From the NCBI RefSeq assembly GCF_035083965.1, contig NC_089722.1, forward strand, positions 43,710,697 to 43,774,696: a stretch of DNA of 64,000 bases, written 5' to 3'. Under the pieces are notes generated by a model. It was not told the DNA's origin and made no database searches. It saw nothing but the letters and a program-made list of their open reading frames with translations. The translations under genes were made by a program, and so were the position numbers. Origin of the DNA: Branchiostoma lanceolatum. Its lineage: Eukaryota > Chordata > Leptocardii > Amphioxiformes > Branchiostomatidae. Positions 14,819 through 64,000 of this stretch are shown piece by piece; the first letter of the stretch is position 1, and each line of letters begins with the position of its first letter.

Positions 14819-16171
14819 TACATGTGTGGGGAGCGTGACTATTCTACAGCATTCAGATCCACTTTGAACCGACATCTAGCCAAACACACTGGTGAGAAAC
14901 CCTACAAGCGTGACAAGTGTGACTATTCTACAGCATTCAGATCCACTTTGAACCAACATTTAGCCAAACACACTGGTGAGAAACCCTACAAGCGTGATAA
15001 GTGTGACTATTCTACAGCATTCAGATCCACTTTGAACCAACATTTAGCCAAACACACCGGTGAGAAACCCTACAAGCGTGACAAGTGTGACTATTCTACA
15101 GCATTCAGATCCACTTTGAACCAACATTTAGCCAAACACACTGGTGAGAAACCCTACAAGCGTGACAAGTGTGACTATTCTACAGCATTCAGATCCACTT
15201 TGAACCGACATCTAGCCAAACACACTGGTGAGAAGCCCTACAAGCGTGACAAGTGTGACTATTCTACAGCATTCAGATCCACTTTGAACCGACATCTAGC
15301 CAAACACACTGGTGAGAAACCCTACAAGCGTGACAAGTGTGACTATTCTACAGCATTCAGATCCACTTTGAACCGACATCTAGCCAAAGACACTGGTGAG
15401 AAACCCTACAAGCGTGACAAGTGTGACTATTCTACAGCATTCAGATCCACTTTGAACCGACATCTAGCCAAACACACTGGTGAGAAACCCTACAAGCGTG
15501 ACAAGTGAGACTATTCTACAGCATTCAGATCCACTTTGAACCGACATCTAGCCAAACACACTGGTGAGAAACCCTACAAGCGTGACAAGTGTGACTAGTG
15601 TGACTATTCTACAGCATTCAGATCCACTTTGAACCAACATTTAGCCAAACACACTGGTGAGAAACCCTACAAGCGTGATAAGTGTGACTATTCTACAGCA
15701 TTCAGATCCACTTTGAACCAACATTTAGCCAAACACACCGGTGAGAAACCCTACAAGCGTGACAAGTGTGACTATTCTACAGCATTCAGATCCACTTTGA
15801 ACCAACATGTAGCCAAACACACCGGTGAGAAACCCTACAAGCGTGACAAGTGTGACTATTCTACAGCATTCAGATCCACTTTGAACCAACATTTAGCCAA
15901 ACACACTGGTGAGAAACCCTACAAGCGTGACAAGTGTGACTATTCTACAGCATTCAGATCCACTTTGAACCGACATCTAGCCAAAGACACTGGTGAGAAG
16001 CCCTACAAGCGTGACAAGTGTGACTATTCTACAGCATTCAGATCCACTTTGAACCGACATCTAGCCAAACACACTGGTGAGAAACCCTACAAGTGTGACA
16101 AGTGTGACTATTCTACAGCATTCAGATCCACTTTGAACCGACATTTAGCCAAACACACTGGTGAGAAGCCC
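14819..16171 (+). repeat. Satellite-like array of 16 zinc-finger units (84 bp each) lacking a zinc-ligand Cys
   Basis: Sixteen tandem units of 84 bp (28 codons), except the tenth, which is 93 bp. Each encodes YKRDKCDYSTAFRSTLNRH plus the LAKHTGEKP linker. Units 2-15 carry CGT (Arg) where the first zinc-binding Cys (TGT) should be; unit 1 has Arg at the second Cys; unit 16 has both Cys. Unit 9 contains an in-frame TGA and unit 10 a TAG. Marker variants recur in order (GATAAG in units 3 and 11, AAAGACACTGG in units 7 and 14), so a block of seven or eight units was itself duplicated. A collapsed or misassembled array is possible. Confidence 0.85.
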
Positions 16172-16297
16172 TACATGTGTGGGGAGCGTGAGAACAGGAC
16201 AGTTCACAAGGCCTACGGCATTTCCCACAATCCTCTGCAGTGTCGGAACTCTGAGAAGACTTATTCATACAAAAGAGAATATCTTCAAATATGTTAA
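16172..16297 (+). pseudogene. Terminal decayed finger and ancestral C-terminus
   Basis: Continues in frame from the array: YMCGERENRTVHKAYG, then a tail ending SYKREYLQIC before the stop at 16297. A similar tail in another frame, 'agacttattcatacagaagagaatctgtacaaatatgataa' in two segments, occurs after copy 1 (near 5215) and copy 4 (near 22085). This is probably the remnant of the ancestral C-terminus. Confidence 0.5.
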
Positions 16298-27520: not shown

Positions 27521-28078
27521 GTAAGAACGCGAATTATGATAAATGACTTCCCCTTGGTGAAGCAGAGGTGCTATAGGTTGTTTCTATGGTGTATGGGCCA
27601 CACTAGCACGAAATGTAAGACTTTTCTGTGTGAGGAAATTTGAGAGGGGGAGGGGGACGAAACCAAATGTCACACATCACGAAACAAAGGTGTTATTTTG
27701 GTTACAAAAGCTCTAAGAATCTTGCTATAGAACAACCTAAATGGGACATAAGTACAATAACAAACATACCTTAGGATACCTTAGGACGACTCGGTGTGGA
27801 AGGCGTCTTCTTGCCTAATTTGTTAACAAGTGTTATGATAACAAATGCGTTCATGAGTGGTTAACTAGGAAAAATGGTTTATAGCAGATTCATATCACGG
27901 AATTGGAGGCAGTATTAAAGGAGGAAAGTACAAGTGAGCCAGGTTTTAACGCCTTTACTATAGGAGTGGTGGCTGGACTGTTGTAGTAACATTTTTTGTG
28001 CCAGCAGAAAAAAATGCACTCTTGAATTATTATATTTTTGATTGATGTCTTTCCAATTTTTTGTCCGTTAGGTTAGAC

Positions 28079-29365
28079 ATGTCAGATGCATGTTATGGGT
28101 CTCCTACTGCTGTTCCCCAGAGCTCCAATGAAGGGTCTCCAACTGTGGTTTTAGGGAATGGAGGTACAAGCAATGTTAAAGATCGGCCAACAGGAGCCAA
28201 AGCCAGTTGGGACAATCAGTCAAAAGCACATACTGATGAGAAACCCTACATGTGCGAAGAGTGCGGGTACAGGGCAGCTCAGAAGAGTCACATATCCAGA
28301 CATATGAGAACCCATACTGGTGAAAAACCCTACAAGTGTGACCAGTGTGATTATTCTGCCGCTGAGAAATCCGCCTTGAACAGCCATCTAGCAAAACACA
28401 CCGGTGAGAAACCCTATATGTGCGGGGAGTGCGGGTACAGGACAGCTCAAAAGCGCCACATATCCAGACATATGAGAACCCATACTGGTGAAAAACCATA
28501 CAAGTGTGACCAGTGTGATTATTCTGCCGCTGAGAAATCCGCCTTGAAGGGACATCTAGCAAAACACACCGGTGAGAAACCCTACATGTGTGGAGAGTGC
28601 GGGTACAGGACAGCTCACAAGCGTAGCCTATCCAGACATATGAGAACTCATACTGGAGAAAAACCCTACAAGTGTGACCAATGTGATTACTCTGCTTCAC
28701 AGAAAACCACCTTGGACAGCCATCTAGGAAAGCACTCAGGTGAGAAACCCTACATGTGTGGGGAGTGTGGGTACAGGACTTTTCGAAAGTCTGAGCTTTC
28801 CATACACATGAGAACCCATACAGGTGAAAAACCTTACAAGTGTGACCAGTGTGACTATTCTGCTGCACAGAAATGTTATTTGAACAGCCATTTAGCGAAA
28901 CACATCGGCAAGAAACCCTACATGTGTGGAGAGTGTGGGTACAGGACAGATCACAGGCATAGCCTATCCAGACACATGAGAACTCATACAGGAGAAAAAC
29001 CCTACAAGTGTGACCAGTGTGACTATTCTGCTGCACAGAAATGTTATTTGAACAGCCATTTAGCGAAACACATCGGCAAGAAACACTACATGTGTGACGA
29101 GTGCGGGTACAAAACAACTAACAATTCTGACTTATCCGAACATATGAGAATCCACACTGGAGAAAAACCCTTCAAGTGTGACCAGTGTAATTATGCCGCT
29201 GCATATAAATCCACATTGGAGAGACATTTAGCCAAACACTCTGGAGAAAAACCCTACATGTGCGGGGAGTGTGGGTACAGGACAGCTCACAAGTCTCACC
29301 TATCCAGACATATGAAAACCCTTACTGGTGAAAAAACATTTATACTGCATAGAAAATCCATTTAG
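28079..29365 (+). CDS. C2H2 zinc-finger protein, 13 fingers, array copy 6
   Basis: 428 aa. ATG follows TGTCCGTTAG|GTTAGAC. N-terminal module variant MSDACYGSPTAVPQSSNEGS, then thirteen fingers in strict alternation. Fingers 8 and 10 are the same QKCYLNSH type with unusual HIGKKP/HIGKKH linkers. In the last finger the second His ligand is Leu (HMKTLTGEK), and the protein ends TFILHRKSI. Nearly identical to the gene at 49096 except that this copy has one extra finger pair (168 bp), a clear case of gain or loss by whole two-finger units. Confidence 0.9.
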   Translation: MSDACYGSPTAVPQSSNEGSPTVVLGNGGTSNVKDRPTGAKASWDNQSKAHTDEKPYMCEECGYRAAQKSHISRHMRTHTGEKPYKCDQCDYSAAEKSALNSHLAKHTGEKPYMCGECGYRTAQKRHISRHMRTHTGEKPYKCDQCDYSAAEKSALKGHLAKHTGEKPYMCGECGYRTAHKRSLSRHMRTHTGEKPYKCDQCDYSASQKTTLDSHLGKHSGEKPYMCGECGYRTFRKSELSIHMRTHTGEKPYKCDQCDYSAAQKCYLNSHLAKHIGKKPYMCGECGYRTDHRHSLSRHMRTHTGEKPYKCDQCDYSAAQKCYLNSHLAKHIGKKHYMCDECGYKTTNNSDLSEHMRIHTGEKPFKCDQCNYAAAYKSTLERHLAKHSGEKPYMCGECGYRTAHKSHLSRHMKTLTGEKTFILHRKSI

Positions 29366-30261: not shown

Positions 30262-30431
30262 TTAAACAGCTACTGACACATAGAGGGCATTTTTTCAGAA
30301 TATATGCATCAAAGGTACTTTTATTCAGTTGACATACTTATTTATGAAAAAAATGCACGGTTCTGTAGTTAAAAGCTACTTTTGAACACCCCTTCACCGA
30401 AAATCCGCGCCGAGGTTCGCTAGAACAGTCA

Positions 30432-30458
30432 GCCGGCAATGACGTCATCGGCTGTAAA
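30432..30458 (+). promoter_or_regulatory. CRE in left subterminal inverted repeat of the Kolobok element
   Basis: TGACGTCA at 30440-30447 within CGGCAATGACGTCATCGGC and then TGTAAAG. It is mirrored inverted at the right end (TGACGTCA at 38151-38158, then CACGTG). It lies about 110 bp upstream of the transposase ATG; a YY1-like CCGCCATCTTGG follows near 30484. Probable promoter and/or transposase-binding region. Confidence 0.5.
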
Positions 30459-30556
30459 GGGAAATAGAACACTGAAGCCGCGGCCGCCATCTTGGTTGTT
30501 TGTAAACATTACGAAGACCACATATCCCGGGCCTGTCCCGGAACTACCTTGTTGCT

Positions 30557-33500
30557 ATGCCGGACCAATGTAGCGCAGGGTATTGCTCTAACGGCAGGGA
30601 AGCAGGCTTTAGCCTCCACAAGTTTCCACAAGAGGAAAGTGTTCGTAAGAAGTGGATTCAACAGGTTCGGCGGACGAGATCGGGTCCAAATGGCACTCCC
30701 TGGCAATTGAACGATTCCGCTTTTCTGTGTTCCGCCCACTTTGACGAGTCGTGCTTTGATCCCGCCGAACGTCTGAAGCAACAGTTTGGATTGAAGCCCG
30801 TGAACAGCAGAAAAATTCTATTGGCCGGTGCGATACCGAGCATATTTCCACGAGGACGGGAGACGGCTGCTCAGCCGGGACCAGCGGTGCGCACCCGGAA
30901 GTCGGGGGCGATAGAGAAGAGGCGCCATCTAGAGGTACGTTTTGTACGTCGGTGTTTCGATGGGGTCACTTCTACGCCGATGTGTTTGTACACGGTGCGA
31001 CTACATATGGTTATTATCGCTTGAATGGGGTAGTGCGTAGCGAAAGTTCAGCCTTTTGTTTATGTACAAGGATGTAATGTAGCGTGTAGCGGTGGACGTC
31101 GTAAATCCAACATGTCGGACCCCACACGGATAAACAAAACAAAGGCGCCGCAGTTTTATCTCTACTATAAAGTCATGCTTTTGAAAACTCTCACCGCACG
31201 GACACTTTGCAGACACAAAGAGGTCACCACCTCATGTTAGCAAGTATTGATATAGCATCCTTTGCGTGATGGGCGATATTTTGCACAATCATGTTACTAA
31301 TAATAGTGGGTGTTTACTAAAAAAATTAAAGGGGGAGGGGGGCAAAACTCTAGACTTACATTTGAAGAAAAGTTCTTAACCAAGGGCCTATACACAAGTG
31401 TGAAATCTTTTTTTATAAGTGCTGAAGGGAACCATAACTTATGTCACCACAGAAATTCACTTACATGCAGTTCTTTTACCAGGAGATGAATCAAGTCCAC
31501 CAGATGACATTATAAATAGTGGAGTGTTCATTACTCATACTTAGAATTATGATTCAAAATCCTGTCTTTATGCATATACCAGATACTCCAGGAATGCATG
31601 CCCTCAGAAGTGACCACAACAACAACAGCAACAGAAGAGGGAGAAGACCTTCCCGCTGACTCTAATCTATTTGTTGAGACAAATGTATGTTTTCACACCT
31701 TATAATTCCCAAGTTTGGTAATTTACAGATACATTATTGCAGATATCATTTCCCTACATACATATTATAACATGTCAAATGCCCCTCTTCGCTTTCTTTT
31801 CACTGTCTCTCAGACCTTCAGTCTGATATATTATTAATACTGCATGTACTTTTTTGTATACATACAGGTGACTCCAACAGAGAGGGGTGTGCAGGTGTGC
31901 ATGAAACCTGAAACAAGAACAGTAGCCACTCTGTTCCGAGGGTATGGACAAAGCAGACGGAGCAAAGGTATTTGATATTACATGTATAAGTTTTCAGTTC
32001 CTGACTTACTTCAATTTAACATTTTCTTTTGGCTGAAATGATGTCAGTGGAATAGATGTCTCTTTTAACAACCTATCATTCTGTTCATACTAGATAACTA
32101 ATGTGATGTTTTTGTTATGTCATATTTCCCCAGGTGTGCAGACTGTTACACCATCTGTGCGCACAATTGGTACTCAGACAGAGATCACGAGTGAGTTTTT
32201 CGACCAGTGTTCCGATTCCGAGGACCAGATGTCAGTGTCTGAGGAGGACAGCATGTCGATTTCTACAGATGACCCAGACTACGAGCCAGACTGTGATCCA
32301 GACTACGATCCATTAGACGATTCTGACGAGGACATCTCAGCTTTTGAGAATACCGAGACCAATGGAAACACCGAGAACATGGAGACATCAGACTCAGAAC
32401 CAGGACGTAGAATTTTCCTGGTATTCTGGACATGTTTAGCACAACTCTTCTCTGTATGGTGCAGTTGCCCCATGTGCCCTAATCGGAAGCTCGCGTGGTC
32501 TTGTAAAGAAGTAGGGACCTTAGTGCAGGTCACAATCAAGTGCACAGAGTGCTCCTACGAAGGACTGTGGAACTCTCAGCCGTTCTTTGGGAAGACAGCA
32601 GCTGGCAACATATTGTTGTCAGCTTCTATCCTGTTCAGTGGAGCAACTCCAACAAAAGTACTCCGCGTATTATCACACATGGGTGTCGCCCTAATGTCAA
32701 TCAGATCCTTTTTCAGACACCAGGAGCGGGTATTGTTTAAAGCTGTTTATCAACTGTGGGCGGAGCGCCAGGTGTGGGATCTCAGCCTCCTCCAGGCAGA
32801 GAGAGAGCCTATCATCTGTGGTGGTGATGGACGTGCGGACACACCAGGGCATTCTGCCAAATATGGCACCTATACCATGATGGAGCTCAGGAAGAATGTT
32901 GTGATTGATGTGCAACTTGTGCAGGTATAGTTTACTTGTCTTATAATATCATGTAGGGCTGGTACAGGTTTATCCCGGGTTTAAGTACAGGTTCGGATTT
33001 GTAAACGTACCTAAACAGGTTTGTTCAATTATCTGTAACTTTAGTCATACAAGTAACCACCTTTTTGTTTTAGTGTCAAATTGTCATTTTTGAATGAGGA
33101 TGTACATATTCTGATCTCAAAATTAAAGTATTTAGCTTTCTAACAAGTACAGGACTATCAAAATTGTTGTTCCTGACAAAGTATTTATCTATCTTTAGCC
33201 TTTAAGATGGTGTCTGCTATAGGTTTAGTTTTGTTCAGGTACAGGTTTATGTACAGATCAAGTTGATTTTTAGGTTTGGACCTGTACCAGACCAAAACAA
33301 ATTAAAGTACAAACTAGTCCCAACAGATGATTTGAATCAAAGATTATTTCTAAGACATTGATGATGATACGGTTTATTATTCAAATTCAAACTTTACACC
33401 ATGAACATATACAGTCTTCCAGCCAACAAGTATATATCATACATCATCATCCTGTGCTAGAACGAAAATCTGAATGCATCTAGTAAATCTTATATACTTA

Positions 33501-35394
33501 ATATTTTAGAGCAATGAGGTAGGAGGGTCCTATCACATGGAGAAAGAGGGACTGGAGCGGTCACTGCACCTACTCCAGGACACATGGAACTTAGATGTTG
33601 GCACGTTGGTGACTGACAGACACTCTGGGATTATCAAGTGGCTCCGTGACCATCAACCGGACATCATACATCTATTTGACATCTGGCATGTTGCTAAAAG
33701 TAAGTGAAACTTGCAAAAGGATATTTAGTTGTTCTTTGCTCATTTGGTGATACTAATATCCATAGTTTTAGATTATATGGGGATACAAATGCCAGTGGTA
33801 GGTTGAAATCATTCAATTTGTAATGATTGATTTGTCCATGCTTGTATATACAGATATCAAGAAAAAGCTACAAGGCCTGAGCCGAACAACAGAATGCCAG
33901 GCATTGAGACCATGGGTTTCAAGTATCATTAACCACTTGTATTGGTCTGTCGTGTCCACACCTCATGGGGAAGGAGAGCTCATCACAGACAAGTGGACGT
34001 CTGTTGTACAACACATTCACAACAGACACACAGGGTTTCCCGGGCAGTTTCCAGCATGTATCCATGAACCCCTTGAGGGAAGGGAGCTTAGGAAGCCCTG
34101 GCTACCATCGCGTAAGTATGAAAAACTTTTCATGACATCGTTAGTGAAATTCCTTGTAATTTCAAAGCAGTACATCGTATATTCTATTGAGAAAGAGCTT
34201 ATGTGTTGACACCTTTTTTTACATGTTTTCCAGATACAAAAGTGTCCATTGAAGTGGAGAAAGTGGTGTGCAGGAAGAAATTGTGTGGAGACATCAAACG
34301 ACTGTCACCTGTACATCAGACATCATCTTTGGAGGCATTCCACAGCCTAATCAACCATTTTGCTCCAAAGATGTATCATTTCTGCTATGAGGGAATGGAG
34401 TGCAGGTAATGAAAATAGAATACTACTGTAAAAGATGCTTTTAGAACATAGCGTTTATGCTCCCGTACAAGAATTGTAATCTTGTTCATGCTCACTTTTT
34501 ATATGATTGTGTTTGTGTATGTAGAGTGATTACCCCATTTCTGATCCCTGTTTAGAGTGATTCTTGCTGCCATGCACTGGAACGAAAATGGATACAGGGC
34601 ACAGCACACCACTGGAGACGGTAAAGCGACCTACAGCCTGCACTATCCAAAGCACAAGAAGGGAGGGCACGTTGTGCGCAAAGTCCTGGCGAATGCATCT
34701 TTTGGTACGTCCCTGTATTTTTATAACTGGTATCACCGCCATTTTGCATAATACTTATCTTTGTAGGTTATTGTATACAATGTACATTGTAAAAGTAAAG
34801 CTATTGCAGTGTAGTTGTTAGCGTCTGAGATTGGATGCAGACTTACTAGTAATTCATTCACTGCACCTATAAATGTGATTTGTAATTTCTTTTTCCCCAG
34901 ACTCACAGTCATCAATGTTTCCAGATGATTCCTTGTTGTATTTGATTGCATTTATATAAAACTTCTTGATGTTTTCTGCCATTGATTTGTCTCATCCCAA
35001 TAAGATTGTATTTTGCACTTTGTTACTGATATGCAGAATGAGACAAGACATTAGATGGGGTAATCACTCTACATAATGCATTAGATCGGGTATTCACTCT
35101 ACATAATACATATCAAAATTTGAATAATACTTTTTCACTAAACATATGTTGTCAATATTTTCTAAGCAGGATAAAACTTTTGAAAATTCATTTCTTATTC
35201 AATGTATATTTCTATCAGGATATGTCAAAAGGTTGCTCAACATGGTGGAGAAGATCTGCAGTGGCCAGTCGTACGATGGGGATGACATGGAGGTTCCAGA
35301 CCCAGCCCGCATCCCAGAGCCCCTCAGTGCTTCCTTCCATCATCCGAACATGGAGGCGGCGATTCAGGCCCATGCTACAAGACTGCATGTTTAA
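30557..35394 (+). CDS. Kolobok transposase with N-terminal THAP domain (9 exons, 771 aa)
   Basis: Inferred exons: 30557-30934, 31583-31684, 31868-31967, 32134-32924, 33510-33699, 33854-34111, 34234-34405, 34556-34704, 35219-35394. All have GT-AG borders, agreeing phases and total 2,316 bases. Residues 1-100 form a THAP zinc finger (C5, C10, then CSAH and AIPSIF), expected to bind the element's ends. A low-complexity acidic stretch follows (about 205-285). Next comes a Cys-rich region (CSCPMC ... CTEC, about 303-335), possibly zinc-binding. The catalytic core has D425 in GDGRAD followed by PGHSAKYGTY, D493 in LVTDRHSG, and E640 in SSLEAFHSLI; I propose these as the DDE triad by position and conservation. 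Exon 9 was chosen over an earlier acceptor because it gives a longer tail (GYVKRLLNMVEKI). No stop or shift seen. Nuclear cut-and-paste transposase by family knowledge. Confidence 0.85.
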
Positions 35395-36492
35395 AGAGAA
35401 AGCTCTTGGTATTATTACTAGCATACATTGTATAGCATACTGCATTTGGAATGTAAAACAAATCTGTCTCAGTTTTTAGAGAATTTCATACAAATTAGAC
35501 AAGATATTGTAGATATCTAGGTAGAACATTATATCATGATTAATCATCTCTGTATATGGCAATATTGTATTGGGGTTACATACAAAAACTATTACAAGTT
35601 TTGGCAATATAAAATTCTGATGCAAAACATTCTGAGTAACATTAAAAATGTTTCTGACTTTGTTATACCTTTCAGATAGAAGAGGTTTACAGGATACAAA
35701 TAGTATCCGCTGGTGCTACAAGTACCTGGGAAAGTGTGTCAGTACTTTTTCCTGCAGTAACTGCTATAAGGACAGAATTTCTTTGTGCACCACACAGGTT
35801 TTATGCAGAGCAATGACTTCTAAACTCTTTTTAACCTCTGTCAAGAATAGTTCTCATGGCAGTGTTTGAAGTTACTAGACAAAGTGCCTTGTACTTATAT
35901 TCAATATAAATGTTTAACAACAAATTAAATATGTAGAAGAAGTACAGTCACTTCAGATATACATAATCCAGATTTCTGGTTATATATGTTATAGCCATAA
36001 TGAACATTGAAAATTTAGCTGCTGTAAAGGTTGGACACAAATTGAATATGTTGACATGACTTCTCATACTTAGTTCATTGACATTACATATCAAAATTTG
36101 AATAATGCTACATGCATATCACTAAACATATGTTCTCAATATTTTCTAAGCAGGATAAAACTTTCTAAACTTTGATAATACTATTATGTAGTGACATTAC
36201 TTAAAAAACTTGGATAATGAAATACCACTGTTGTAAATAGAATGTACTTGTTGCCATGCCTGTTAATAAAGTTTTTCTTCCTCTATATTACTGTAACGTT
36301 ACAGCAAAACAGAAATCCCATTTTGACATGAATTGTGTTGTACACTCACTCGTTTCCAATGTCATCCTATGGTCCTCCTGATAGATACAGAAACTCTGGA
36401 AGGGGCACCCATGCACCCGTAACCCGATACCCTCCCTATCAACGGGACGTTTATCTTAGCAACCGACTTCAGTGGTTCCCCTGTCATACACA

Positions 36493-37358
36493 ATGGCCGA
36501 TGAAATGGTGTTCCACTCCGACTCATCAGAGTCAAGTGTTGACGCGTTTTTTGAGGTGGCCGATAGTGATGAGCCTGCCGAGCTCGAGGGGGCCGTGGGA
36601 GGTATAGTGCCGTACCGGTATGAGCCGTACCTAGACGACATGCAAGCCGAAGAGCCGGACGATAATGATGAGGGTACCGAGGAAGATCGCGGGAATGGGA
36701 ACGACGGTGATATCCAGAGACTTCAAAATACGGAGTGGTAAGCAAGGCATTATGATAGTGGCACGACAGAACAGTACATGTACTTGTAATTCATCGTACA
36801 CAGCTAATTAGTAATTAACATTTGTCTGGCGATTTCAATATTGATTTTATTACCAGGTGTTCCTGTGGGCGATGCGAGGCCATGCCAACAGTCGTGGAGA
36901 GCGTCTGCTGTCGCGAGCAGGCTCGTGTTTCGGCCACTAGAGACGAACTGGACGGTCTCCGGTGCATAACAGAACATCCCGGCTTTGAGCCGGTTTGCCT
37001 AAATGTGTATGTTCTTACAACTGCACATAGCGGTTACAGGCAGCAGTACGGAGTGACCCTCGGAAACGAGTGAGTAGAATTTATTTGGCGCAGAAAAAGC
37101 TCCCGATTTACTTGACATACGATATGACATACGTTGTAAACGGTAAGAAATAGATAAAATATGATGTATGTATCACTTTACAAACGCCCCTGTTTTCCCC
37201 ATTACAGATGGAAGAGGTACTCAGCCTACCGACAGTTCGTCACGTGGTGCTATGACCACCTGGGCAAAGAAGTGAGGGTGCCTCTGCCATCCTGTGCCGT
37301 GTCTACCATAAGAAGGGCATTCCCCTCAGCCGACTACACGGGATACAAGGAGAATTAA
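36493..37358 (+). CDS. P2X7 C-terminal (ballast)-like domain protein, 3 exons, 202 aa
   Basis: Inferred exons 36493-36737, 36857-37069 and 37208-37358; phases agree and total 609 bases. Starts MADEMVFHSDSSESSVDAFF. An acidic first third (DDNDEGTEEDRG) leads to VPYRYEPYL and IQRLQNTEW. The conserved part then begins at the exon 1/2 border: WCSCGRCEAMPT, CCREQARV, CITEHPGF, and VPLPSCAVSTIRRAFP near the end. This is the pattern of the zinc- and nucleotide-binding cytosolic domain of P2X7, which also occurs in many stand-alone invertebrate proteins. No channel segments are present. AATAAA at 37361-37366 follows the stop. It lies inside the transposon, downstream of and codirectional with the transposase; its role there is unknown. 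Confidence 0.75.
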
Positions 37359-37797
37359 TTAATAAAATTATAGGACTTTCAACTACACATTTTAGTTGTT
37401 TTTTCAATTTTCCCTATCTTTCTACATCTACCACCCTCGTGTCATGTTATTTCTGTTTCATGAACAACACCTACAACGTTGTTAACATATAGAATTTTAC
37501 ATGATGATATTCTACTCGTAACGTTTATTTGATAACAATGGAGCTAATGTATGAATTGTCGAAATACGTATACAGTCCGATAAATAAATTGTCCGGTGTA
37601 CACAAGTACAGGGCTGATCAGTAGTCATATTTTGAAAAAGGATTTTAGGTCAGTGGTTAACGTTATAACGTTATGTTGATTGGCGTTTTCGCCGGTGTCA
37701 CGAAGCCTAAATGCTGCATCGTCCCACGGCGTCTATACTTCGTCATCTGACAGAAACTTGTAATGTATAAACAACAGTAACACCATCATAGCTGCCC

Positions 37798-38070
37798 TTA
37801 CCATTCAACATGTTGCAGTCTCCCGATGTCTATGGGGATCCGGCCTTCCATTTCCGCTTCAGTGTCGCCGTTGTTGTTACCAACACTGTTGGAACAGCTC
37901 CTCCGCCACGCTGTCTGCACACGGCTGCTGAGTATGCCGATATATGGTTCATATATGTAGGGTACAACCCCATCTACATCCCCTTGAGACAACAGGGACT
38001 TGACTTCTTTAAAAAATGCGTCCCACGCTCGGCGAAAGTCGGAAAACCGCACAACTTCTTCACCCATCAT
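37798..38070 (-). CDS. Inverted orphan first exon of a second ballast-type gene
   Basis: Minus-strand frame starting at 38070 (MMGEEVVRFSDFRRAWDAFF). It parallels exon 1 of the 36493 gene: WDAFF/VDAFF, VVPYIYEPYI/IVPYRYEPYL and IGRLQHVEW/IQRLQNTEW. It ends with the same splice donor arrangement (TG|GTAAG at the Trp codon). No matching Cys-rich second exon is found on the minus strand to its left. Its start is about 80 bp inside the CRE of the right subterminal repeat, so it may have its own promoter. Either a remnant of an inverted duplication or an exon joined to an unrecognised partner. Confidence 0.55.
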   Translation of the reverse strand: MMGEEVVRFSDFRRAWDAFFKEVKSLLSQGDVDGVVPYIYEPYIGILSSRVQTAWRRSCSNSVGNNNGDTEAEMEGRIPIDIGRLQHVEW

Positions 38071-38141
38071 GTCGGCCGTGTTGTTGAACCTCCTGCGTGC
38101 GCGAGCTAGCTGCGCGAGCTGCGTGCGTGCCGGGGATTCTT

Positions 38142-38166
38142 TACAGCCGGTGACGTCATAGGGTCA
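38142..38166 (-). promoter_or_regulatory. CRE and E-box in right subterminal inverted repeat
   Basis: TGACGTCA at 38151-38158 followed by GGTCACGTGATG (E-box CACGTG). The reverse complement shares GACGTCACCGGCTGTAAAG with the left end (one change in that stretch). It faces the inverted ballast-type exon. Confidence 0.5.
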
Positions 38167-38345
38167 CGTGATGCCCATTCCAGAGGCCAACACAGTGCGC
38201 CGGGAAAGGCGGACTTTGGGAAGCCGTATAAACTTTATTTTTAGGTCATGGCGATCACAAGCAATTTTAAACTACTACATTTTATCTATATTTCTAAGAT
38301 ATAAATGCATTTCAACAAGTTTTTCACCTGTCAGTAGCTGTTTAA

Positions 38346-42207: not shown

Positions 42208-43119
42208 ATGTGTACTTTCAATGGCCCTCCCCCAGCAAACTGGTTTCGCTATGTAGACGACACTTGGTGTTGGCTAAAGAAGAGAGTAGCTGATGACTTC
42301 TTTGACCATATTAACCAGGTAGATGGCAACATCAAGTTCACACAGGAGTCGTGTCAAAACAACATGCTCCCCTTCTTAGACACCAAAACCATCATAGAGA
42401 AGGATGGCAACCTTCAGTTCGAAGTGTACAGGAAACCGACCCACACTGATCAATATCTGACCGTTGATTCCCATCACCCTTTAGAACACAAACTAGCAGT
42501 GATTAAAACTCTCTTCCATCGAGCAGACAATGTCATTACCTCAGACGAAGCAAAAACAGAAGAACACAGACATGTCCGTGTGGCTTTAGCCAAGTGTGGC
42601 TACCAAAATTGGACCTTCAACAAGGCCCTCAAACCTTCTGACCAGTCTAAGAAAACACTCAAGTGCAGACCATTGACCAACAGAAACAAGGTCAACATTA
42701 CCATTCCCTACGTCCAAGGAGTATCGGAAAAACTCAGACGTATCTTCCAAAACTTCAACATTGCCACTAACTTCAAACCTCACTCAACTCTCAGGCAGAA
42801 ACTAGTCCATCCAAAAGACAGGCCTGAAAAAGGCATCAAAGCCAATGTCATCTACAAACTGAAATGTGAGGAACCGAACTGCAATAACATCTACATTGGG
42901 GAGACAAGTCGACCACTAAAAGAAAGGTACAAGGAACATTGCAGAAAGAGCGCTAACCGCTACTCCTCTGCCATTTACCACCATCTAAAACACAACCAGG
43001 GACACTCATTCAATCTCGAATCCACGGACATCCTAGATCGTGAAGAACGCTGGTTCGAACGGGGAATTAGAGAAGCAATATATGAGAGGATGTACAACCC
43101 TGCCCTCAACAGGAAAGGG
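42208..43119 (+). CDS. Penelope-like RT C-terminal part plus GIY-YIG endonuclease (partial)
   Basis: Partial product of the truncated element; the ATG at 42208 is in zinc-finger flank and probably not a true start. Visible: the RT active-site box YVDD at about residues 15-18, the family signature YRKPTHTDQYL near residue 75, a CxxxxC pair (KCEEPNC) before the endonuclease, and GIY-YIG IYIGETSR near residue 227 with the Arg/Glu-containing helix after it (ERYKEH). The frame stays open into the nested LINE, making a 943-aa fused frame to 45039. Confidence 0.7.
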
Positions 43120-46100
43120 TATGAATTTGTATTGAACAAAGACCCAGTTTTCACGGCTATGATCTACTACTGTACAAGTTTGTATACACTTTACACGTGG
43201 TTACTGTTGTTGTTGATTGTTTTATCAAATGATGTTCACCCTAATCCGGGACCCACCTGTTCAAGTACTACATCCAAATACCTGAATATCTTACACGCCA
43301 ACGTTAATAGTATAACTGTAGGGACGAAGCTGGATGAGCTTTCTTTGTTGTCTAAACAATTCAAACTTAACATTATTGCAATTTCTGAGACGTGGCTAAG
43401 TGACGTTGTTACCTCAGAAAACCTTACTATCCCGAATTTTCAGCCCCCGATCCGTCGAGATCGAAACAGGCACGGCGGAGGTGTTCTGGTTTACGTTTCG
43501 TCTTCTATTGCTTTCAAACGGCGCACTGATCTTGAGCCCCAATCGTTTGAAGCTATTTGGGTTCAGCTGAAAATCAAATCTTTTGATATTCTACTTTCTG
43601 TGTACTACCGGCCGCCTGGCCAGGACGCAACTACTGCAGCTGATTTTCTGTCTTCGTTTTCTGATTCCGTCCAGATGGCGAGAATGTCGCGTCCCGATGC
43701 CATTATAGTTGTCGGTGACTTTAATGCAAAACACCATCAATGGTGGCACCTGGACATAATTGGCTCCGAGCTATACCAAATTACTCAGCTCTTGAATCTT
43801 ACACAAATTGTTAATGAGCCCACCAGTGACCTTTCGCGTCACGCTTCCCTTATTGATCTTATACTCACCGATGCTTTAAACTATGTTGACTCGGTGTCAG
43901 TCCAAGCGCCTCTTTCACGATGTCACCACTGTCCCACAATTTGTTCCATGGCCTTTTCGATGTATGTACCCAAACCTTATGCACGGACTGTATGGGATTA
44001 TTCTCGCATTGATTACGATAAACTGTCGGAAGTTTGTTCCTGCTCGGAATGGAATGACATTTTTCTCCTTCCATCTGTAGACGAAGCTGCGTCAAAACGA
44101 TGTCAACTTATTATTGAGGCAAAAAATGTTTGTATCCCCTGCAAAAACATATTAATTAGACCAAAAGATAAACCCTGGATAACGAAAGAAATCCGGAAGC
44201 TTATGCGGTCCCGTAATAAATTTCATAAGTTGGCTAAGCTATCAAACTCTCAGGTAAATTGGGCAGCATACCGCAAAATCCGCAATAAGCTTTCGAATGC
44301 CATCTCATCCAGCAAGTCCAAGTATTTTTGTCGTCTGTCTGACTCTTTAAAGGATCCTTCTTTATCTGGCAAGAAGTGGTGGCATGTAGTAAAACACTTT
44401 TACAAACCTAAAACAACTACTTCTATTCCCCCTTTGAACGAAGGCAGCACGCTTATTGTTGACTCGATGGCGAAGGCTTCACTTTTTAATGAATACTTTG
44501 TCTCTCAATCCTCCATAGATGAGTCTAATGCATCGCTGCCTGAATTTCACTACCTGACAAGTAGTCGTTTACTTCATGTTACCACCACTCCAGAAGAAGT
44601 TCAACTTTATGTCAAAGAACTAGATACTCATAAGTCACACGGATATGACAACATAGACAACCGCTTCCTAAAAATAGTTGTCCCGTTCATAGCTGACAAA
44701 ATTAGTTACGTATTTAATCTATCATTGTGTCATGGTCATTTTCCTAAAATCTGGAAATATGCTAATGTTGTACCTATTTTCAAAAAGGGCGATGCTAGTG
44801 ATAAGAGCAACTATCGTCCCGTGTCCCTACTTCCAACCCTGTCGAAGGTCCTAGAAAAAATAGTCTATAAGCACCTTTACAACCACCTGATGCAAAATAA
44901 TCTTTTGTATAGGCTTCAATCCGGTTTTATAAGAGGCGATTCTACTGTTTGTCAATTAGCGTATTTCTGTCATACTATTTTAAAAGCCCTGGATACCGGA
45001 AAAGAAGTCCGAGCTGGATTTTTCTCGGGCATTCGATAAGGTGTGGCACAGTGGCCTTATTTTCAAACTACATTGTAATCGGATCGAAGGGCCTCTTATA
45101 AACTGGATTTATTCATATCTTAGTGACAGGTCTCAAAGGGTTGCAATAGACGGTACATGTTCTTCCTGGTGTTTAGTTAGTGCTGGAGTTCCACAAGGGT
45201 CTATATTAGGTCCCTTATTCTTTCTTGTTTACATTAATGATATTGTTGATAATCTTGTCTCCCAGCCATTTCCTTTTGCTGATGACAGCTCTCTTCTTCA
45301 TGTTGTTGATAATCCGATTCACTCCGCTTCCTGTTTAAATGCTGATTTGGAAACAATTCACACATGGGCTGTTCAGTGGTTAATGGAACTTAATCCAACC
45401 AAAACAGTAGAAATGATCTTTTCAACCACAAGAGCAAATTTAGTACACCCACCTCTTCTCTTAAACGATTGTGTTATCCAGTCTGTCTCCTCCCACAAAC
45501 ATATCGGAGCTACATTAAGCTCCGATATGTCCTGGAAATCTCATACCAACTACATGTTGAAAAAAATTTCCAAAACTTTGGCCACATTTAAAGGATTGAA
45601 ATTCAAACTACCTCGTAATGTTCTGGAGATATTGGACAAATCGTTTATTCGTCCCTGCTTAGAGTACGGTGATGTCGTTTGGCAGAGCTGCACATACGAA
45701 GAATCACAACTTTTAGAACGAATACAGTATCATTGTTCCCTTATTGTTGCAGGTGCTGTCAAAGGATCATCGTATTCCTTAACTTGTAAAGAACTCGGTT
45801 GGGAGACATTATCGGATAGGAGGCACATTCATCGACTTTTACTGTTTTACAAAATCATTCATGGTGTTACTCGTAGCTATCTATCTGATTTACTCCCCGC
45901 AGTCATTTCATCAACATGTTTGTATGATCTTCGTAACAAAATGAATCTAAGATCGCTGAATGGCTCAACAAACCGTTTTGTTAAGTCCTTTGTTCCATAC
46001 TCATTAACTCATTGGAACAAACTGGATGTTGGAATACGAAGTTACAGCTACTCTAAGTTTCGGATGTACCTATTTAAATGTGTACGACCTTCCAAACCTA

Positions 46101-46727
46101 GTCATTTCAGTTATGGTCCCCGATATGTTTGTTCACTCTTGGCACGATTTCGCATTGGCACCCACGGCTTGAATGACAGTCTCTTCAGTCGTGGGCTAGT
46201 TGATAGCCCGGCATGTTACTGCGGGTGTCAATTCGAATCAATCTCTCATTTCTTACTTCACTGCCCATTACATATTAATCAGCGTTTACTTTTACTTGAC
46301 CAACTTTCCAAAATTATAGGACACATTTTCGCCATCAAATCACTCTCGGACGATGCTATTAAACACCTGTTAATCTACGGATCATCTCTTTGCTCCGACA
46401 GTTCAAACTGTAACATAATGAGTTTAACTCAATAATATATTATACTTACGAAGCGGTTCTCACATTGAAATTGGTACATCCCATCCTATCAGTTATATTT
46501 AGTCGGGGGGAAGGGAGGTTTGCGCTTGTGAAACGAATCATATTGCAACACATGTATTGAACGCTTTCATTGATCTGTTGTTATTGTGTAGATAAGTTTA
46601 TTACTGTTTAAGATATTCCTGTTTTGTATGATGGCACGTAATATAAGTTTTATTAACTTGAGTTCGTTGCCATCCTGTCTGTATCTGTTGTTTATGTTGT
46701 TTAATAAAAATAAAAAATAAAAAAAAA
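43120..46727 (+). mobile_element. Near-complete APE LINE nested in the Penelope element, 12-bp TSD
   Basis: Flanked by AACAGGAAAGGG at 43108-43119 and 46728-46739. It is 3,608 bp long with a very short 5' leader (39 bp before the ATG at 43159). The 3' end is TTTAATAAAAATAAAAAATA plus an A tail. Encodes 2A, APE endonuclease, RT and a Cys-His C-terminus. No separate ORF1. It belongs to the CR1/jockey-like group of APE LINEs; I cannot fix the clade. Young: only one break seen in the ORF. Confidence 0.9.
43159..46435 (+). CDS. LINE ORF2 with N-terminal 2A peptide, APE endonuclease and RT
   Basis: Starts with a hydrophobic, signal-like stretch (LYTWLLLLLIVLSN) directly followed by DVHPNPGP, a canonical 2A ribosome-skipping motif; skipping would separate residues 1-35 from the rest. 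The APE endonuclease follows (HANVNS, SETWLS, GDFNAKHHQW). RT motifs include FKKGDASDKSNYRPVSLLP, LDFSRAFDKVW, GVPQGSILGP and FADD (instead of YADD). Near the C-terminus CYCGCQ...HFLLHC is a probable zinc motif. The frame shifts once at about 45010: expected RAVFLDFSR reads RAGFFSG and stops at 45039. About eight bases appear missing just before LDFSRAFD; the second frame is open to 46435. Signal-plus-2A starts are known in APE LINEs of sea urchin and lancelet. Confidence 0.85.
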
Positions 46728-48612: not shown

Positions 48613-49095
48613 GTAAGAACGCGAATTATGATAAAAGACTTCTCTTTCGTGAAGCAGAGGTGCTATAGGCTGTTTCTATGGTGTATGGGCCACACTAGCA
48701 CGAAATGTAAGACTTTTCTGGGTGAGGAAATTTGAGAGGGGGAGGGGGGCGAAACCAAATGTCACACATCACGAGACAAAGGTGTTATTTAGAAAAGGTC
48801 TAAGAATCTTGTTATAAAATAACCAAAATGGGACATAAGTACAATAACAAACATGTGTAATGATAGCAAATGCGTTCAAGAGTGGTTAACTTAGAAAAAT
48901 GGTTTATAGCAGATTCATATCACGGAACGGAAGGTAGTATTAAAAGGAAGAAAGTACGAGTGGGCCAGGTTTTAACGCCATTGCCATAGGAGTGGTGGCT
49001 GGACTGGACATTTTTGTGCCATCAGAAAAAAATTCATTTTGAGTTATGATATTTTTGATTGATGTCGTTCAAATTTTTTGTCCGTTAGGTTAGAC

Positions 49096-50214
49096 ATGGC
49101 AGATGCATGTTATGGGTCTCCTACTGCTGTTCCCCAGAGCTCCAAGGAAGGGTCTCTAACTGTGGTTTTAGGGAATGGAGGTACAAGCAATGTTATAGAT
49201 CGGCCAACAGGAGCCAAAGCCAGTTTGGACAATCAGTCAAAAGCACATACTGGTGAGAAACCCTACATGTGCGAAGAGTGCGGGTACAGGGCAGCTCAGA
49301 AGAGTCACATATCCAGACATATGAGAACCCATACTGGTGAAAAACCCTACAAGTGTGACCAGTGTGATTATTCTGCTGCTGAGAAATCCACCTTGAAGAG
49401 ACATCTAGCCAAACACACCGGAGAGAAACCCTACATGTGCGGAGAGTGCGGGTACAGGACAGATCACAGGCGTAGCCTATCCAGACATATGAGAACTCAT
49501 ACTGGAGAAAAACCCTACAAGTGTGACCAATGTGATTACTCTGCTGTACAGAAAACCACCTTGCACAGACATCTAGCAAAGCACTCAGGTGAGAAACCCT
49601 ACATGTGTGGGGAGTGCGGGTACAGGACTATTGGGAAGTCTGAGCTTTCCATACACATGAGAACCCATACAGGTGAAAAACCTTACAAGTGTGACCAGTG
49701 TGACTATTCTGCTGCACAGAAATGTTATTTGAACAGCCACTTAGCGAAACACATCGGCAAGAAACCCTACATGTGTGGAGAGTGTGGGTACAGGACAGAT
49801 CACAGGCATAGCCTATCCAGACACATGAGAACTCATACTGGAGAAAAACCTTACAAGTGTGACCAGTGTGACTATTCTGCTGCACAGAAATGTTATTTGA
49901 ACAGCCATTTAGCGAAACACATCGGCAAGAAACACTACATGTGTGACGAGTGCGGGTACAAAACAACTAACAATTCTGACTTATCCGAACATATGAAAAT
50001 CCACACTGGAGAAAAACCCTTCAAGTGTGACCAGTGTAATTATGCCGCTGCATATAAATCCACATTGGAGAGACATTTAGCCAAACACTCTGGAGAAAAA
50101 CCCTACATGTGTGGTGAATGTGGGTACAGGACAGATCACAAGTCTCACCTATCCAGACATATGAAAACCCATACTGGTGAAAAACCATTTATACTGCATA
50201 GAAAGTCCATTTAG
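49096..50214 (+). CDS. C2H2 zinc-finger protein, 11 fingers, array copy 8
   Basis: 372 aa. ATG follows TGTCCGTTAG|GTTAGAC. Module MADACYGSPTAVPQSSKEGS; eleven fingers in strict alternation; C-terminus FILHRKSI as in copy 6. Compared with copy 6 (28079) it lacks one 168-bp finger pair. Several differences fall in recognition helices (DHRRSLSR for HKRSLSR, VQKTTLHR for SQKTTLDS, IGKSELSI for FRKSELSI), while frameworks are almost unchanged. The last finger keeps both His (HMKTH), unlike copy 6. Best-preserved member of this pair. Confidence 0.9.
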   Translation: MADACYGSPTAVPQSSKEGSLTVVLGNGGTSNVIDRPTGAKASLDNQSKAHTGEKPYMCEECGYRAAQKSHISRHMRTHTGEKPYKCDQCDYSAAEKSTLKRHLAKHTGEKPYMCGECGYRTDHRRSLSRHMRTHTGEKPYKCDQCDYSAVQKTTLHRHLAKHSGEKPYMCGECGYRTIGKSELSIHMRTHTGEKPYKCDQCDYSAAQKCYLNSHLAKHIGKKPYMCGECGYRTDHRHSLSRHMRTHTGEKPYKCDQCDYSAAQKCYLNSHLAKHIGKKHYMCDECGYKTTNNSDLSEHMKIHTGEKPFKCDQCNYAAAYKSTLERHLAKHSGEKPYMCGECGYRTDHKSHLSRHMKTHTGEKPFILHRKSI

Positions 50215-51270
50215 CCCGACAAATAGCAAGTTCAGGTGAGAAACCATACATGTGAGGCGAGTGTGGGTACAGGGCAACTGAAAAGTCTCATTTATCCAAA
50301 CATACATATCTTCATACATAAGAGAATTTCTACAAATATCATAACAGTGCAGTATATGTACATCTGTTTATCCTCTATCGCGTATTACTATATGTGGTAT
50401 TCGTGGAAAGAACTGTAACAGAGAGGAGCATGGTTTGTTGTAAGTGTAAGTGTAAGTGTAGATTAAGTATAAAGACGTGTAAAAACTCGGTAACAATCAC
50501 TGTCAAATCTAATACAAGCTAGCCTGACGACTGACTTTATACTGACATCCTACAAAAATTCGTTGCTTTTATGATATATTGGTATTTTCTTGTGATTAAA
50601 GTCGGTCCTGTTTGTGTAGGTGAAGGGTTTTTTTTTTGGGGGGGGGGCTTCAAAAATGTTTCTATAACAGCCTTGACCTCGCTCAAGCAGATGTTGGGGT
50701 GAAAGTTAAAAATGTTCTGGTGCTGGGACAGCTGTATGTCAGAATCAAATGTGGACCACCAGGAAATGTGATGATTTTCATGCCCAACATCTGCTTGGAG
50801 TTTGTCCCTGTCTTAGACTAGCCCATGGTGTGAACAGGAGTTGTACATGTTCGTACAGGAGGTTAAAGTTCACCAATCATATCAGCTGTACAGGAACCAG
50901 ACTGGAGGGTTGCTATGGTGACAATAAATCTGGATTTTAGCAATTTTGCTGTCTTTTTTGTGAACTGCATGGTTCTGTATGAGTGCTACTATCTTAGGCC
51001 GCACGAATTCAATTTGTCGGTCAGGCCACATCAATTTCATTAGATGGTTCTTGGAATCGCTGCTTCGAAAAATCTTTTTTTTTTCGCCCTGTCGCTTCAT
51101 ATTTTTCCTGAAAAAATCCGAAAAACCAACAAATTAAATTGTTGTGGCCTTAAACCTTACCTTACCTTATAGGATTGATAAAAAAGGGATTGCTCAACTG
51201 GAAAATCTGCATGAAAAAAAACTGAGGTAGAGGTCATCATGTTCTGAATCTGCAGGGCCTGAAATAGTCT

Positions 51271-62185: not shown

Positions 62186-64000
62186 AGCCAGTCACCCTTT
62201 CAAGTCAGCCCCCCCTCACAGTCACAGTCCCATTCTTCATGGGTCTGTGATACTTGTGACCTCCGTGTCTCATGGAACGACCGTGGCATAGAATGCGAAA
62301 AATGTGGCCAATGGTTCCACGGACATTGCCAGAGTGTTGACACACAATATTATGAAGATTTGGCAGACTCAAACATTCATTGGTATTGCGCAATATGTGG
62401 TAGTCCCAACAGTAGAACTGTGTTTGATCTATATGGAATTGACTGGTCGGGGTCATCACTTCATGATTCGTCCCTAAATTCCTGTAAAACACCAACTGAT
62501 CTTCAGTTCAAACCTCAACATACATCTACTCCCTCAAGAAGTAGCCAACAAGACAAGTGGAGAGATAGACCTTTACGTATTTTAAATATTAATTTCCAGT
62601 CAGCTAGCTCAAAAAGATCAGAACTTCCACACCTTTTGGAAAGTCTAAAACCTGATATAGTCATTGGATCAGAGACTTGGCTAGATCCAACGATTGCGAG
62701 TACAGAATTCTTCCCAGATTTGTATAGAGTATACAGGAAAGATAGAGGTGGACGTGGGGGAGGTGTGTTGATTGCCGCCCACAACAACATTGACAGTTTT
62801 GCAGCCCCGGAGCTGGAGGTGGACAATTGCGAACTCCTGTGGGTACGCATCAAGTTGAGAGGTAGGCGAGCCCTCTATGTTGCTGCCTTTTACAGACCGG
62901 ACGTTGGCGACGAGCCTAGTCTGATACACTTGGCTACATCACTTCAGAGGGCATCTCAGCTACAGAATGCTTTCCTTCTCATAGGGGGTGATTTCAATCT
63001 CCCCGGATGGGATTGGACCACAACCACCTTAAAACCAAAGGCACCTCATCCCCGTCTTCATCAGGACCTCCTTAGTATGCTGTATGACAATGGTTTGGAA
63101 CAAATGGTCAAGCAACCAACTAGGGAAGCCAACACTTTGGACCTGTTCTTAACAAACTTTCCCGACTTGGTCCCCCGGGTAGAGGTGGTACCTGGACTTT
63201 CAGACCACTGTATACCGTACTGTGAAATTAGCACCAGTGCTAGGAGAAAGAAACAATCTCCACGCCAGATCCCCTGTACAATAAGGCAGATTTGGACAGT
63301 CTGAGAGCTGCAGCCACAGAACTTAGTACAGAAATTCAGGGAAAACATGACAATTTTACAACAGAAGAGCTATGGGTTACCTTTAAAGACTCTCTACTCG
63401 CAGCAGTTAAGATGCATATACCACACAAAGTGGCAAGGACCAAGACTGACCAGCCTTGGGTCACGCCAAGTATCCGGAAGCTCATCAATAGACGGAATAG
63501 GAAATACCGTCAGATGAAGAAAACCGGATCGGCCTCACTGAGAGAGGAGGTGAAGGTACTACGCCACACTATCCAGCGACAGATTCGCCGGAGTTACTGG
63601 AGCTACCTGAACTCAGTCTTTACCGAAGAAACAGCGGCTGGTCAGCCGGGTAAGAGGTTTTGGACATACATTAAAAAACAGCGCTCGTCCAATGTGGGCG
63701 TGGCACCACTCAAAAAGGATGGTCATTTGACTTCAAACCCTCAGGAGCAAGCAGAACTGCTAAACGACCAGTTCCAATCTGTCTTCGGGGAGGGTAGACA
63801 ATACACTGATGAAGAATTTGAACAGAAAACTGGTATGCAAAACACTGACATCCCAGCAATGGACAATATAAACATCAACTGCGAGGGTGTGAGGAAACTC
63901 ATGAAGAAACTTGATCCTCACAAAGCAGGAGGACCAGACGGTATAAGCACCAGAGTGCTGCGGGAGCTTGCAACAGAACTAGCACCAGCACTCACAGTCA
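62186..64000 (+). mobile_element. PHD-APE-RT LINE, 5' portion, runs off the window
   Basis: Order: PHD finger, APE endonuclease, start of reverse transcriptase. The left border lies near the last upstream in-frame stop (62183-62185) and may be a few tens of bases off. The RT proper lies mostly beyond 64000. CR1/L2-like group by domain order; exact clade not set. Confidence 0.8.
62222..64000 (+). CDS. LINE ORF: PHD finger, APE endonuclease, RT (partial)
   Basis: The frame is open from 62186 with no ATG in its first part, so the start is uncertain. PHD-type zinc ligands: CDTC, CEKC, HGHC, CAIC within residues 10-60. APE domain from NINFQSASSKRSE, SETWLD, GGGVLIAA, GGDFNLPGWDW, LSDHCIPY. At about 63270 the frame shifts by one base (RQIPCTIR where LYNKADLDSL is open in another frame). 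That second frame then stays open to the window end and includes QPWVTPSIRKLINRRNRKYR and KKLDPHKAGGPDGISTRVL, the start of the RT domain. Apart from that shift it looks undamaged. Confidence 0.8.

Follow-up and report, generated by a model that had tools for sequence, protein, structure and literature searches.

The window, by which we mean the whole 64-kb stretch of DNA analysed here, contains a Kolobok-type element set between two copies of TTAA. Inside it lie a nine-exon transposase gene, a three-exon gene related to the ballast of the P2X7 receptor (KolX), two further KolX-like pieces and a pair of mirrored subterminal repeats. The features are given below in their order along the window, the exon joins of transposase and KolX being predicted from sequence.

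30262..30265, no strand: TTAA target-site duplication, left copy; the empty paralogous site has one TTAA
30266-38341: Kolobok-type element, whole, from terminal inverted repeat (TIR) to TIR
30266..30278, plus strand: left TIR, 13 bp
30439..30459, plus strand: left subterminal 21-bp repeat with TGACGTCA, 174-194 bp from the end
30557..30934, plus strand: transposase exon 1, THAP domain
31583..31684, plus strand: transposase exon 2, without a domain match of its own
31868..31967, plus strand: transposase exon 3, without a domain match of its own
32134..32924, plus strand: transposase exon 4, with the likely first catalytic D (residue 425), assigned by motif and not aligned
33510..33699, plus strand: transposase exon 5, with the likely second catalytic D (residue 492) and DxxH at 514-517
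33854..34111, plus strand: transposase exon 6, H2CH-like motif at 576-591
34234..34405, plus strand: transposase exon 7, with the likely catalytic E (residue 640), assigned by motif
34556..34704, plus strand: transposase exon 8
35219..35394, plus strand: transposase exon 9, including the stop codon
35676..35739, plus strand: probable remnant of a third KolX exon, interrupted by in-frame stops and altered in length by 2 bp
36493..36737, plus strand: KolX exon 1
36857..37069, plus strand: KolX exon 2, with 6 of the 7 zinc-type cysteines
37208..37358, plus strand: KolX exon 3, with the stop codon and the LPSC...IR motif
37802..38070, minus strand: second, diverged KolX-like exon 1, its GTAAG donor placed in the codon used by KolX exon 1; partner exons were not found
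38139..38159, minus strand: right subterminal 21-bp repeat, 183-203 bp from the end
38329..38341, minus strand: right TIR, 13 bp, exact complement of the left TIR
38342..38345, no strand: TTAA target-site duplication, right copy; the empty paralogous site has one TTAA

The initial annotation of this DNA had proposed that nine transposase exons (771 aa) and three ballast exons (202 aa) join in phase, and this predicted gene structure stands: the transposase model, from 30557 to 35394, has GT-AG borders at all 8 introns, the KolX model, from 36493 to 37358, at both of its 2 introns, and neither contains an internal stop. The same annotation described exact 13-bp TIRs and TTAA duplications, which we also recovered. 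Upon scanning the 64 kb for TTAA followed by the TIR, with one position left open and up to 3 mismatches permitted, we found two matches, both without mismatches and both at the element ends; at this tolerance 0.88 matches are expected by chance, and two or more occurred in 24 of 100 shuffles. No further TIR copy was found in the window with 3 mismatches or fewer.

The flanking DNA is duplicated in tandem within the same window (49245-51155, then 51159 onward), and this duplicate, which matches both flanks, runs uninterrupted across the insertion point near 51150 with one TTAA. With 74 gap columns excluded, the left flank agrees with its paralogue at 935 of 962 aligned columns; for the right flank the figure is 106 of 114 (6 gap columns). 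The empty site has one additional 5-bp repeat unit immediately to the right of the insertion point. Both element ends are therefore fixed independently of the TIRs, and the simplest reading is that the flanks were duplicated before the element inserted. The string common to both junctions is TTAAAC, and we adopted the TTAA register because the symmetry of the TIRs selects TTAA out of it. In this register the element reads 5'-AC ... GT-3', with a purine at base 1 and none at base 2 of the 5' end; if the register were instead the 6-bp TTAAAC, the element would show AG at its end and not AC.

A paralogous empty site is available because the element sits in a cluster of C2H2 zinc-finger genes that arose by tandem duplication. 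Zinc-finger open reading frames with long arrays of 84-bp repeats lie at 28046-29365, at 49063-50214 and at other places across the window. At 15069-16297, a zinc-finger array is made of many near-identical units of 84 bp that have lost the first zinc cysteine to a substitution (KRDKCDYS); this array is recently homogenised and probably degenerate.

The predicted transposase has two Pfam matches above the curated cut-offs, to THAP (PF05485, residues 5-97, E 9.4e-14) and to the Mutator-like domain (PF20700, best stretch 462-580, E 4.7e-13). Searched as a single sequence against solved structures, the THAP part hits THAP2 (2d8r, E 1.3e-7); its C2CH residues are C5, C10, C58 and H61, and its AVPTIF box reads AIPSIF. 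The likely catalytic residues correspond to a DDE of the C/DxxH group (D425, D492, D514xxH517 and E640), assigned by motif and not by alignment with Kolobok members. Between the DxxH and the catalytic E lies an H2CH-like finger of the form HxxH...CxH at 576-591, also recognised by motif only. The transposase further contains a WCSCPMC...C stretch (window 32460-32520) that resembles the WCSCGRC motif of KolX and is probably an ordinary zinc knuckle.

For KolX, Pfam gives P2RX7_C (PF20478) over residues 71-199 with an E of 5.2e-15, above the curated cut-off, and the single-sequence search against solved structures aligns residues 79-200 with human P2X7 473-592 at an E of 0.0047, which is weak alone. 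The protein has the WCxCxxC, CC, C-I-T and LPSC...IR motifs of the P2X7 ballast (PDB 9e3m, 8tr5, 6u9v), and all seven zinc-type cysteines (Cys 83, 85, 88, 99, 100, 118 and 182) could be mapped by eye with the motifs that the accessible text of PMC7016195 offers for placing them in P2X7. It differs from the P2X7 ballast in being a free-standing protein of 202 aa and in having a longer spacer from CC to CIT. We thus identify the ballast gene of the element as KolX, with a predicted ballast-type domain.

A codirectional ballast gene inside such a transposon had been called little described in the initial annotation, and this has to be corrected. In the portions of their paper available to us, Kojima and Bao (2022; PMC9587614) describe a Kol0 lineage of Kolobok that encodes two proteins, the transposase and KolX, the latter showing clear similarity to the cytoplasmic ballast of human P2X7 (residues 476-595). 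According to the same portions, ballast-like proteins of diverse animals were formerly unrecognised as parts of Kolobok, Nanor is likely a domesticated KolX, and P2X7 originated when a P2X4-like gene fused with KolX. The earlier suggestion that the genes of stand-alone ballast proteins belong in part to transposons agrees with this text and is, by the same token, not new. Hence the central idea of a Kol0 transposon carrying a ballast gene is already in print, while the details of KolX duplication given below are new in relation to what that text contains. Nanor and other stand-alone ballast (ZCD) proteins, as treated in the accessible part of PMC7016195, likewise have the ballast domain without a P2X channel, whereas the ballast gene studied here sits within its own transposon.

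The ends, the TTAA duplication with its empty site, the two uninterrupted spliced frames, and the THAP, transposase and P2RX7_C domains can be seen in the sequence itself, and they uphold the earlier proposal of a Kolobok element enclosing a P2X7-ballast-like gene. We consider the element to be an apparently complete autonomous cut-and-paste Kolobok transposon of Kol0 type, with genes for a THAP-DDE transposase and for KolX as an accessory protein, with a probability of about 0.92 for this explanation as a whole, in which Kol0 membership is assigned by gene content and not by a tree. DDE, THAP and H2CH are given as the usual Kolobok motifs in the consulted part of PMC6004289, and the element has a TTAA duplication, a DDE of the C/DxxH group, a THAP domain and an H2CH-like finger. 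With Kol0 (type Kolobok-1_XT; PMC9587614, as far as available) it shares the DDE transposase accompanied by KolX, the second protein with a ballast domain being present at sequence level, as well as the TTAA duplications and the C/DxxH motif. It differs in its 5'-AC ends, the termini given there for Kolobok being 5'-RR ... YY-3', and in its additional minus-strand KolX-like exon and exon-3 relic. Subfamily A1 of the Xenopus tropicalis XKol elements (PMC6004289, Table 5, from the part seen) has the same TTAA and the same THAP, H2CH and DDE motifs; KolX is not mentioned for it there. A gapless comparison of its TIR with that of the element shows CTGACA at positions 8-13 and 10/13 and 9/13 matching bases by eye; CTGACA stands at that place in 3 of the 10 Xenopus rows, those of subfamily A1, and in none of the other 7. 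The terminal dinucleotide is AC in the element versus AG in all 10 full-length Xenopus rows of that table. By peptide patterns, no relative of KolX or of the transposase was found in viral_contigs, and in genome_contigs nine stretches matched a pattern, none of which encoded a relative; these collections yielded no Kolobok sequences.

Two other explanations of the element as a whole were considered. One sees in the ballast gene an unrelated gene of the host, which either stood at this site or was picked up on one occasion by this copy, and not a regular part of the transposon. A single copy of the element was examined, which leaves room for such an accident, but the empty-site paralogue has neither transposase nor ballast gene between its joined flanks, two more KolX-like pieces lie within the same element, and KolX is a standard Kol0 gene in the published description (PMC9587614, available portions); we regard this explanation as very improbable. 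We give still less credence to an element of piggyBac or P type, although TTAA is common to piggyBac and THAP to P, the end is not 5'-RR, and KolX-like proteins also occur in a few families of piggyBac according to the accessible text of PMC9587614. Against it, the transposase combines THAP, a Mutator-like domain of the C/DxxH group and an H2CH-like motif, and among its Pfam matches up to E 1 there is no piggyBac or P transposase model, the piggyBac transposase domain thus being absent at this level.

Returning to the Kol0-type transposon, its right part contains a 90-codon open frame (minus strand, 38070-37802) that aligns with KolX exon 1 at 32% over 93 columns, with tblastn E values of 1.8e-5 and 1.6e-7 in the two directions. 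Its GTAAG donor falls in the same tryptophan codon as the splice point of KolX exon 1. Over 78 aligned codons the two exons differ at 51 third, 36 first and 36 second positions, and over the 43 best aligned codons at 28 third, 15 first and 13 second positions, in a protein-guided alignment that itself lowers the differences at first and second positions and favours the third-position pattern. Synonymous change between the two looks saturated; the exons would therefore have diverged long ago and remained coding for long. The other piece lies at 35676, 280 bp past the transposase stop, where a TTTCAG acceptor precedes a sequence resembling the start of KolX exon 3. Its two adjacent segments match KolX exon 3 at 25/35 and then 20/29 bases, each being the best match of the window outside the KolX gene itself (the next best reach 21 and 19). 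We call it a relic because of its stops and its 2-bp length change. An 88-bp direct repeat (85%) joins 35107-35188, in transposase intron 8, with 36085-36172, upstream of KolX; we considered it as a trace of a tandem duplication carrying KolX and dropped this idea on account of the unequal distances to the two third exons.

It could be argued that both pieces are chance resemblances and that the element has a single KolX gene. The relic has a tblastn E of only 0.74 against KolX, its DNA alignment score of 21 is equalled at a single unrelated site elsewhere in the window (56641, minus strand), and the minus-strand exon has no Pfam match to P2RX7_C, only matches below the cut-off. Yet two sets of 500 and 300 randomised sequences, drawn from a first-order Markov chain and thus not exact shuffles, contained no sequence that reached the score of the relic, and both of its segments are the best of the window, while the minus-strand exon has low E values in both directions and an identical splice codon. 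Chance therefore seems unlikely to us: we hold with high confidence, as judged from sequence, that the minus-strand KolX-like exon is real, and the exon-3 relic near 35676 is probably real too. A more serious alternative, which we nevertheless find doubtful, is that the minus-strand exon opens a second, functional KolX gene, which would run inward from the right end towards the transposase gene and whose other exons would be too diverged to recognise. The 90-codon open frame, the donor in the codon used by KolX exon 1, the mirrored 21-bp repeat upstream and the excess of third-position differences, as under long protein constraint, are all in its favour. However, that excess is read from an alignment which favours it, no second or third exon was found on the minus strand, and the stretch 37800-37358 of that strand is full of stops in all three frames; the cysteine motif of exon 2 occurs on the minus strand at a single place, 34039-34030, antisense within transposase exon 6.

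The left and right 21-bp repeats are inverted relative to each other and complementary at 20 of 21 bp. The CRE-like TGACGTCA alone occurs at 9 places in the window, but the right-hand part CGGCTGTAAAG occurs only at the two subterminal repeats. Transposase exon 1 and the minus-strand exon, both pointing inward, start about 70-100 bp downstream of a copy. The repeat could be a subterminal site for the transposase or a promoter module. The minus-strand exon, the exon-3 relic, the mirrored repeat and the AC termini had all been overlooked in the initial annotation. Together, the extra pieces, the mirrored repeat and the AC ends suggest gain and loss of KolX genes within such elements, and the minus-strand exon and the relic may be remains of an earlier KolX duplication and loss in the family of this element. 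A bolder proposal, which we advance as speculation, is that some Kol0 are two-promoter elements in which the mirrored 21-bp modules start the transposase gene from the left end and a KolX-type gene from the right end, with KolX genes repeatedly duplicated, strand-switched and lost. If so, KolX would be a fast-turning accessory gene, through which guanine nucleotides might control the transposase, and the ballast of P2X7 would represent a part of that control put to new use.

By analogy with known families, the THAP domain of the Kol0-type transposase would bind the terminal or subterminal repeats, and the DDE domain would cut at the 13-bp TIRs and join the element to TTAA. KolX, presumably a soluble zinc-bound ballast fold, may help or regulate the transposase in the nucleus. 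Our literature search found no published answer on the role of KolX for the transposase. The P-element transposase needs GTP, and our guess is that KolX might act as a zinc-folded cofactor, perhaps adding guanine-nucleotide binding to the transposase complex. The guanine-nucleotide site of P2X7 comprises R546-H547, R574, R578 and K583 in the accessible text of PMC7016195. In the alignment with human P2X7, KolX keeps two of these five GDP-contact residues (R156 and R188 for R546 and R578), and the other three, H547, R574 and K583, are replaced by Y157, V184 and S193, which weakens the guess. The element, well preserved and with a natural empty site alongside, comes from the lineage thought to have given P2X7 its tail, which makes it a good starting point for testing what KolX does for the transposase.

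The window also holds sequences of other mobile elements. An open frame at 42208-46435 has a GIY-YIG-like stretch (no Pfam match), which in our view presumably resembles Penelope-like elements, and continues into a LINE endonuclease-reverse transcriptase with DVHPNPGP near its start, reminiscent of 2A-like motifs. A second LINE-type frame, at 62186-63999, has a PHD finger before the endonuclease domain.
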